Source: Candidatus Uhrbacteria bacterium CG10_big_fil_rev_8_21_14_0_10_48_16
GTDB lineage: Bacteria; Patescibacteriota; Patescibacteriia; UBA9934; GWF2-40-263
Direction of reading: 5' to 3'
Length of the DNA: 32,732 nucleotides
Assembly (NCBI GenBank): GCA_002793515.1
Contig: PFEU01000016.1
Span: forward strand, 3,205-35,936
The notes under the pieces: generated by a model
Database searches by the model: none
Told to the model about the DNA's origin: nothing
Seen by the model: the letters and a program-made list of their open reading frames with translations, nothing else
Program-made: the position numbers and the translations under genes
Shown here: one piece after another, positions 3 to 24,331 of the stretch
Position numbering within the stretch: position 1 is the first letter of the stretch
Layout of the letters: the number at the start of each line of letters is the position of its first letter

Positions 3-55
3 ACAAACGGGCTGGCACGGACAGTCGCCCGTTTGTGTACCGGCTCCGCCGGTAC
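3..55 (-). repeat. Two hairpins downstream of tRNA-Gln(TTG)
   Basis: Hairpin A has arms ACAAACGGGC (3-12) and GCCCGTTTGT (27-36). Hairpin B has arms GTACCGGC (37-44) and GCCGGTAC (48-55) with a 3-nt loop. Both have counterparts at 24076-24128. In hairpin A one A-T pair is swapped to T-A between the two copies with pairing kept, which suggests the fold matters. The role is unknown; neither has a T-tract. Confidence 0.8.
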
Positions 56-105
56 GGAACCAAGAAAAAAGCTTCACCTTTCGATGAAGCTTTTTTCTTG
101 GTTCC
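56..105 (-). terminator. Long perfect hairpin overlapping the tRNA-Gln(TTG) 3' end
   Basis: A 21-bp perfect inverted repeat (56-76 with 85-105, loop 77-84). Read on the minus strand, the proximal arm begins in the last bases of the tRNA (GGAACCA) and the distal part is rich in T, so it looks like a Rho-independent terminator. Because the arm includes the mature tRNA 3' end, this hairpin would compete with the acceptor stem. The downstream copy at 24026-24075 has the same design with a different inner sequence. Confidence 0.8.
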
Positions 106-172
106 CGGACAGGGATTCGAACCCCGATTATCTGGACCAAAACCAGACGTCCTGCCCTTAGACGATCCGGGA
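99..172 (-). tRNA. tRNA-Gln (anticodon TTG)
   Basis: A 74-nt tRNA including an encoded CCA. The acceptor stem is TCCCGGA paired with TCCGGGA, discriminator A, then CCA. The T-arm carries GGTTCGAATCC. The anticodon stem TCTGG/CCAGA encloses loop TTTTGGT, giving anticodon TTG (reads CAA, and CAG by wobble). It differs from the tRNA at 23959-24032 at four positions only: one D-loop base, the first anticodon base, and a swapped T-A/A-T pair in the anticodon stem. It is transcribed outward (leftward). Confidence 0.95.
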
Positions 173-279
173 ATGTAGTGAGGCAGTGAAATCAAGAGCT
201 GTTTATTTATCAGCTCTTGATTTCACTGCCGAACGGAATGACTGGATATGGCGCACCGCCATATCCGGGAATGTAGTGA
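165..279. repeat. Palindromic cassette flanked by 17-bp direct repeats of the tRNA 5' boundary
   Basis: The 17-mer ATCCGGGAATGTAGTGA occurs at 165-181, spanning the tRNA 5' end, and again at 263-279. Between the copies lie a 20-bp perfect palindrome (182-201 with 211-230, 9-nt loop) and a 10-bp perfect hairpin (244-253 with 257-266). This layout resembles an inserted element with a duplicated target, or an attachment-like duplication of the tRNA start. The same arrangement is present at 23852-23966, so it predates the locus duplication or has been homogenised. Confidence 0.7.
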
Positions 280-350
280 ACGAATCTCCACACACAGACC
301 AAGATATGACCCTGTCCTATCACGGGAGAAGCGTGTCCATAGTCATAGCC

Positions 351-23721: not shown

Positions 23722-23851
23722 GGAGGTGAATCGTTGACGAGGAAAAGGGGAAATGTTATTCTTTTGCCCAAGAAGAGGGGGCTGTGGGCGATGGACACGC
23801 TTCTCTCGTGATATGAAGGGGTCATATCATTGTCTGTGTGTGGAGATTCAT
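23722..23851. other. Gene-free stretch with small hairpins after dnaX
   Basis: No gene is supported. An inverted repeat GCCCA/TGGGC lies at about 23766-23789. TGATATGA/TCATATCA (23809-23816 with 23822-23829) is an 8-bp perfect hairpin; its equivalent in the left copy is imperfect. No clear tRNA promoter could be assigned upstream of the tRNA-Gln at 23959. Confidence 0.5.
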
Positions 23852-23900
23852 TCACTACATTCCCGGATATAACGGTACGCCATATCCAGTCATTCCGTTC

Positions 23901-23949
23901 GGCAGTGAAATCAAGAGCTGATAAATAAACAGCTCTTGATTTCACTGCC
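23901..23949. repeat. 20-bp perfect palindrome just upstream of tRNA-Gln(CTG)
   Basis: GGCAGTGAAATCAAGAGCTG (23901-23920), 9-nt AT loop, then its exact complement to 23949. It ends 9 nt before the tRNA 5' end and is identical to that at 182-230. It could be a terminator for dnaX, an RNase processing site or part of a mobile cassette. Confidence 0.85.
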
Positions 23950-23958
23950 CCACTACAT

Positions 23959-24032
23959 TCCCGGATCGTCTAACGGCAGGACGACTGGTTCTGGTCCAGT
24001 TAATCGGGGTTCGAATCCCTGTCCGGGAACCA
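23959..24032 (+). tRNA. tRNA-Gln (anticodon CTG)
   Basis: A 74-nt tRNA with encoded CCA. Acceptor stem TCCCGGA/TCCGGGA, T-arm GGTTCGAATCC, anticodon stem ACTGG/CCAGT with loop TTCTGGT, anticodon CTG (reads CAG). It is a near-copy of the tRNA-Gln(TTG) at 99-172; the swapped pair in the anticodon stem keeps pairing, which argues that both genes are functional. Confidence 0.95.
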
Positions 24033-24075
24033 AAGAAAAGAACCGACATTTACGTCGGTTCTTTTCTTTGGTTCC
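24026..24075 (+). terminator. 22-bp perfect hairpin overlapping the tRNA-Gln(CTG) 3' end
   Basis: Arms 24026-24047 and 24054-24075 are fully complementary with a 6-nt loop. The first arm begins in the tRNA 3' end (GGAACCA). The inner sequence (AAAGAAAAGAACCGAC) is unrelated in its core to that of the left copy, though each is perfect. T-rich distal arm fits a terminator. Confidence 0.8.
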
Positions 24076-24128
24076 GTACCGGCGGAGCCGGTACACATAC
24101 GGGCGACGATCGGTGTCAGCCCGTATGT
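24076..24128 (+). repeat. Two hairpins downstream of tRNA-Gln(CTG)
   Basis: GTACCGGC/GCCGGTAC (24076-24083 with 24087-24094) and ACATACGGGC/GCCCGTATGT (24095-24104 with 24119-24128). They correspond to 3-55, the second with a paired A-T to T-A swap. Confidence 0.8.
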
Positions 24129-24331
24129 CGGACAGGGATATTGCTGAAGCGGAGCAACGTCCTCGTAAGTGACGTTGCGGGAGCGAAGCAACATCCCTGG
24201 TAGGTAAGTCGGACAGGGATATAGCGAACGATGAAAGGTCGCATGTGTCACCTTTCAAAGAGTGAGCGTCCATGCCTGGTAGATAGGTCGGGCGACGATC
24301 GGTTTCAGTTCATTCATCAAATAGTCCCTAC
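24129..24331. repeat. Array of nested hairpins and short direct repeats
   Basis: No gene here. GCAACGTC/GACGTTGC (24154-24161 with 24171-24178) sits inside CAGGGATATTGCT/AGCAACATCCCTG (24133-24145 with 24187-24199, one mismatch). TGAAAGGT/ACCTTTCA is at about 24232-24257. GTCGGACAGGGATAT repeats at 24127-24141 and 24208-24222; GGGCGACGATCGGTGTCAG at 24101-24119 returns at 24290-24308 with one change. GGACAGGGAT equals the reverse complement of the tRNA-Gln T-arm, so part of the array may derive from the tRNA. It lies at the 3' end of the minus-strand oxidase gene. Confidence 0.65.

Follow-up and report, generated by a model that had tools for sequence, protein, structure and literature searches.

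Hairpins behind two tRNA-Gln genes of a Candidatus Uhrbacteria genome: predicted terminators among structured repeat units

Two tRNA-Gln loci on the arms of an inverted repeat

The window, by which we mean the whole stretch of 32,732 nucleotides that was analysed, carries two tRNA-Gln genes, one with the anticodon TTG and one with CTG, that lie on the two arms of a long inverted repeat (Table 1). The flanks of the two loci are 93% identical across 249 nt and 88% identical across 69 nt. Each gene is followed by a hairpin that starts within the 3' end of the tRNA and abuts the CCA. The left stem (56-76/85-105) has 21 bp and a loop of 8, the right stem (24026-24047/24054-24075) has 22 bp and a loop of 6, and the complementarity is 100% in both. 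Their RNA folding energies are -36.7 and -37.2 kcal/mol, respectively, with z about -10.5, and none of 200 shuffles matched the two hairpins in stability. Outward from the CCA the layout is the same in both hairpins, namely, an A-tract, a GC core, the loop, the complementary core, a T-tract and TGGTTCC, and yet the cores, GCTTCA in the left and GAACCGAC in the right, do not align with each other. These data bear out three claims of an earlier note on this DNA, that the hairpins are perfect with 21 and 22 pairs, that their inner arms are unrelated, and that the flanking DNA is well conserved.

The outer 7 bp of both stems are formed by the tRNA 3' end, GGAACCA, pairing with TGGTTCC, which is an inverted copy of that end placed behind the terminator, and it is because this copy follows that the stems extend into the tRNA. 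Inverted copies of the tRNA 3' end are found behind the terminator at other array loci as well, and at the tRNA-His gene of the relative G033 the copy is exact over 13 nt. Both loci have a second and a third hairpin further downstream. The second one, in the TTG copy of the genus mate G004, has the arms GTCCGGC/GCCGGAC, both of which are shorter than in this genome (G000), and the arms of the third differ by a change that is paired on both sides, AAACGGG/CCCGTTT versus ATACGGG/CCCGTAT. The units on the 5' side of the two genes each have a perfect 20-bp tip, at 182-230 on the left and at 23901-23949 on the right, and units similar to the tandem pair of the right locus occur at the TTG locus of G004.

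Table 1. Coordinates of the features in the window
Feature	Position	Strand	Remarks
tRNA-Gln (TTG)	99..172	-	ARAGORN; Rfam RF00005, 56.9 bits; sequence identical to G004 orthologue
Predicted terminator hairpin of tRNA-Gln(TTG), 21 bp perfect	56..105	-	Core conserved in G004 TTG orthologue
tRNA-Gln (CTG)	23959..24032	+	Sequence identical to G004 and G005 CTG orthologues
Predicted terminator hairpin of tRNA-Gln(CTG), 22 bp perfect	24026..24075	+	A-tract, core GAACCGAC, T-tract, TGGTTCC
Second downstream hairpin, left locus, GTACCGGC-GGA-GCCGGTAC	37..55	-	
Second downstream hairpin, right locus	24076..24094	+	
Third downstream hairpin (10 bp), left locus	3..36	-	
Third downstream hairpin (10 bp), right locus	24095..24128	+	
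Two tandem GA-type hairpin units	24129..24279	+	Frame CGGACAGGGAT...ATCCCTG, tRNA T-arm-like
GA-ladder hairpin unit 5' of tRNA-Gln(TTG), reads away from tRNA	164..248	+	Model R1, 39.2 bits
GA-ladder hairpin unit 5' of tRNA-Gln(CTG), reads away from tRNA	23883..23967	-	Model R1, 36.3 bits
Small hairpin hpC beyond left 5' unit	244..266	+	
Small hairpin hpC beyond right 5' unit	23865..23887	-	
Long inverted repeat, left arm with TTG locus	92..340	+	Pairs with 23791-24039, 93%
Long inverted repeat, right arm with CTG locus	23791..24039	-	

Hairpins behind tRNA genes and the changes in their stems

When the distinct 3' flanks of tRNA genes in this genome and its relatives were examined, a terminator-type hairpin was found within 45 nt in 75 of 98, whereas this anatomy was seen in 79 of 3000 45-mers drawn at random and in 1 of 294 flanks after shuffling. 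The window hairpins are predicted to be ordinary rho-independent terminators of their tRNA-Gln genes, and this function would constrain the A-tract and T-tract that adjoin the outer 7 bp. What they have in common with intrinsic tRNA terminators is a stable hairpin with a GC core and a T-tract that pairs with the A-tract, placed directly after the gene, and a sequence that is free to change while pairing is kept and G.U is tolerated on the transcript strand. They differ in that the stems run into the tRNA 3' end through the inverted copy and in that inserted units can push the terminator away from the gene. All 68 classified terminator stems are distinct in sequence. The perfection of the window stems is not universal because only 36 of the 75 tRNA-flanking hairpins are paired by Watson-Crick pairs throughout and the others have G.U pairs or mismatches; many relatives have imperfect arms, and so the decayed arms that the earlier note regarded as evidence against its proposals are in part found. 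When departures from Watson-Crick pairing in these hairpins were scored in a strand-symmetric manner, there were 30 G.T and 7 A.C (p=2e-4), and this excess of G.U over A.C argues that it is the transcript strand that is the target of selection. The hairpins would be selected as RNA structures, and the cores would be free to vary while they remain paired because selection acts on the RNA structure.

Orthologous terminators of G000 and G004 were compared by a home-made pair alignment in which 14 of 18 pairs could be aligned, the Gln-ctg pair being among those that did not align. In the 14 alignable pairs there were 10 two-sided changes, 15 base pairs gained or lost whole, and 6 one-sided changes. 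These counts, together with the pairs that could not be aligned, indicate that concerted change is the common mode and that replacement also occurs. The strong selection on the fold that it had considered is upheld by the strand-asymmetric tolerance of G.U and by pair changes between same-genus orthologues that are mostly concerted. Terminators probably evolve by two routes. In one, base pairs change in a concerted manner; in the other, whole hairpins are exchanged or displaced when GA-ladder units, described below, join tRNA ends.

Another explanation is that template switching during replication copied one arm from the other and thereby made a new perfect stem in one event. The question of how long stems can change in sequence and yet keep perfect pairing is still open, and template switching is an established mechanism for RNA hairpins (PMC8794818). 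It would fit with the perfect stems, with two-sided changes and pair gains or losses outnumbering one-sided changes, and with the second downstream hairpin, both arms of which are shorter in G004 than in G000. However, template switching alone would not yield the excess of G.U over A.C, hairpins also move whole, and no ancestor with half-changed arms was found; concerted arm changes are seen among the G000/G004 orthologues but none is a polarised single-event case. We regard this explanation as rather unlikely, although it is possible that template switching is one source of the two-sided changes, and it may act together with selection.

Structured repeat units at tRNA and tmRNA ends

Several tRNA genes are followed by tandem units, each about 200 bp long, which came to light because antisense-tRNA alignments at array loci pointed to them; a simple antisense-tRNA scan gave near-background scores at most loci. 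A unit consists of the last ~19 nt of the tRNA, the terminator, an antisense and degenerate tRNA 3'-end copy, GGTTCGATG, a hairpin, the small hairpin hpC, and then the tRNA 3' end again. The unit hairpin has a short basal stem followed by three tandem G.A/A.G steps with pairing dinucleotides between them and often one bulged base. Its tip, hpB, has Watson-Crick pairs throughout in 35 of 67 units and differs in sequence between units, the mean identity of the outer 10 nt being 0.42. In an alignment of 49 units, which was fitted to the model and hence leans towards structure, 92.5% of the pair cells were paired compared to 66.9% when shuffled and 33-47% when slid, 19 of 21 pairs had a double change, and the cells with a double change numbered 269 compared to 86 when shuffled and 24-43 when slid.

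A covariance model built from six hand-picked units gave 12 matches in this genome, where 8 of the 9 unit loci have a tRNA or tmRNA gene no more than 500 bp away (p about 1e-10, assuming a target of 4.4% as estimated from 40 genes). Among order relatives, 25 of 59 genomes and 15 of 32 genera had matches, and across the phylum 22 of 380 genomes did, often away from tRNA genes; there were none in 30 genomes of a mostly non-Patescibacteria set. Among units at most 300 bp from a tRNA or tmRNA gene, 45 of 52 point away from the gene. All 21 of the 3' units start at the GTTC or GTAC|GATG T-loop junction, and in 18 of them a copy of the 3' end of the host tRNA follows on the far side. No credible Rfam match to the units was obtained in a gathering scan or in an E-value scan of nine loci, and no description of the unit system was found in the literature searched, a partial library in which absence is weak evidence. 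The wider system of hairpin repeats at tRNA and tmRNA ends is apparently undescribed, and that it is an unusual structured repeat family is well supported. The same units were also observed at the tmRNA 3' end together with a copy of that end (L077, G000 C29:14495-14603; and L127). In two genomes from other families of the phylum (G113 and G157) there are 13 GA-ladder hairpins each, and those examined are largely intergenic, away from tRNA genes, and followed by small hairpins with GCGAAGC-like tips.

Exchange and DISPLACEMENT can be seen in the tRNA-Glu array of G000, where units a and c have a common terminator, frames and hpC but different tips, and an identical copy of the unit c tip occurs in the tRNA-Gly array. 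The tips at tRNA-Cys and tmRNA in G000 are similar to each other, and the orthologous Cys and tmRNA units of G004 have other tips. The tRNA-Leu unit, on the other hand, changed between G000 and G004 through compensated substitutions. In the relative G005 the tRNA-Glu(ctc) gene is directly followed by its terminator and there is no array at the locus. This terminator (32 nt identical) is found in G000 617 nt downstream, behind three units, where it sits directly after a tRNA 3'-end copy. The extra unit that G000 has at tRNA-Gly was probably added next to the tRNA, since the second unit of G000 there corresponds to the proximal one of G004. At tRNA-His of G012, the proximal and distal terminators are identical, which indicates that an added unit can carry a duplicate of the host's own terminator; a displaced ancestral terminator was looked for at tRNA-His and not found. 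The units would be added at tRNA ends by a recombination step. We tentatively propose, at slightly less than even confidence, that Patescibacteria have a family of noncoding mobile units with strand-specific, tandem-G.A-ladder hairpins that enter tRNA and tmRNA genes at the T-loop (and at the 5' end), duplicate the gene end, form arrays and swap variable perfect hairpins, which would change the terminators repeatedly. In the arrays, small noncoding repeats remodel the ends of essential tRNA and tmRNA genes in streamlined genomes. Since orthologous stems with concerted changes stand beside exchanged or displaced hairpins and thus give many natural replicates, the two routes of change can be distinguished.

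Elements that integrate into tRNA genes have their att sites at tRNA 3' ends, and the units resemble them in that the insertion lies in the T-loop region and a copy of the tRNA 3' end is present beyond it. They differ in being ~200 bp long, gene-free, without an integrase of their own, tandem, and present also on the 5' side and at tmRNA. Integron gene cassettes carry attC, and the likeness to them lies in tandem small units with a strand-specific hairpin and in one instance where the unit nearest the anchor is the newly added one, whereas the units here have no genes and the anchor is a tRNA gene. We consider it improbable that Y1/RAYT transposases move the tRNA-flanking units as REP-like elements. 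They do resemble REP/BIME in being small noncoding palindromic repeats outside genes, tandem and with strand-specific mismatches, and some have GTAG or GGAG near the foot as in REPs, which are small palindromes with such a tag (PMC3733652). However, the tag is found in only part of the units, beside tips that vary rather than a palindrome conserved in the family, and the units have three tandem G.A steps and target tRNA and tmRNA. Across 59 genomes there was no association with the Y1 transposase (TnpA-REP), as Y1_Tnp was present in 16 of 25 unit-bearing genomes compared to 22 of 34 others and several unit-bearing genomes lack it, and for this reason a RAYT/Y1 origin was rejected.

It could also be that the hairpins are not terminators but sites of recombination or transposition, maintained for their structure as DNA or as a single strand. 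They do stand among arrayed GA-ladder hairpins that are strand-specific and accompanied by copies of tRNA ends, but the A-tract, GC core and T-tract right after the CCA are found at tRNA genes without arrays too and the G.U asymmetry tracks the tRNA strand, which makes this very improbable.

History of the two tRNA-Gln loci

The left (TTG) terminator is nearly identical in the TTG orthologue of G004. The CTG locus of G004 has a different terminator, with the core ACTGATG, and lacks the downstream array that G000 has at both Gln loci, and each tRNA body in the window is that of its G004 orthologue. The CTG terminator of the window had no match among the CTG orthologues of G002-G005, its sole near match being the tRNA-Gln(TTG) terminator of another family (L041), and in the right flank we noticed no displaced CTG terminator. 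The most likely explanation, judging from this one same-genus relative, is that the flanks were homogenised between the two loci of the window and that the terminators remained gene-specific. The window loci would share their flanks because the surrounding arrays were homogenised between the inverted copies, each gene retaining its own tRNA body and its own terminator. As G017 has two tRNA-Gln genes at a spacing similar to that in the window, the two paralogues are probably old. That the two loci are att-type ends of one mobile element was considered and rejected because the 23 kb between them holds ordinary genes (uvrA, uvrB, dnaX) and the spacing in G017 is similar.

The interpretation offered in the earlier note stands in part. 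Wholesale hairpin replacement is real, as seen from the displaced tRNA-Glu terminator and from identical variable hairpins in different tRNA contexts, but a template switch is not needed for the window pair because the TTG terminator is kept in the orthologue and the CTG terminator of the relative differs where the array is absent. It is likely that the hairpins are rho-independent terminators under selection as RNA, that the shared flanks were homogenised, and that terminators change by two routes. That the difference between left and right is an artefact of assembling a metagenome-derived genome is barely credible since, even though the draft is fragmented in 29 contigs and has Ns immediately before the left edge of the window, the separate genome G004 has the left terminator too and the same architecture is present in many genomes.

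A few other observations were made. The small hairpin TGATATGA/TCATATCA (window 23809-23838) is intact in the right repeat copy and its left counterpart near 300-325 is partly decayed. At the tRNA-Glu loci of this genome (L033 1551-1811 and L006 1340-1516), a GIY-YIG endonuclease gene (PF01541, E 2e-11) lies directly 5' of tRNA-Glu(ttc), with its reading frame ending within the tRNA. The gene is bounded on its other side by a tRNA 5'-end copy, and a weak GIY-YIG remnant is at the equivalent place of tRNA-Glu(ctc). At L010, around 1430-1650, a complete tRNA-Ala(tgc) lies within a long inverted repeat that is itself within a split second copy of tRNA-Ala(tgc). At tRNA-Arg(gcg) (L023/L084), a second tRNA-Arg copy lies ~120 nt downstream, and the short palindrome CCTGCCTGCCGGTAGGCAGG interrupts it close to the anticodon.
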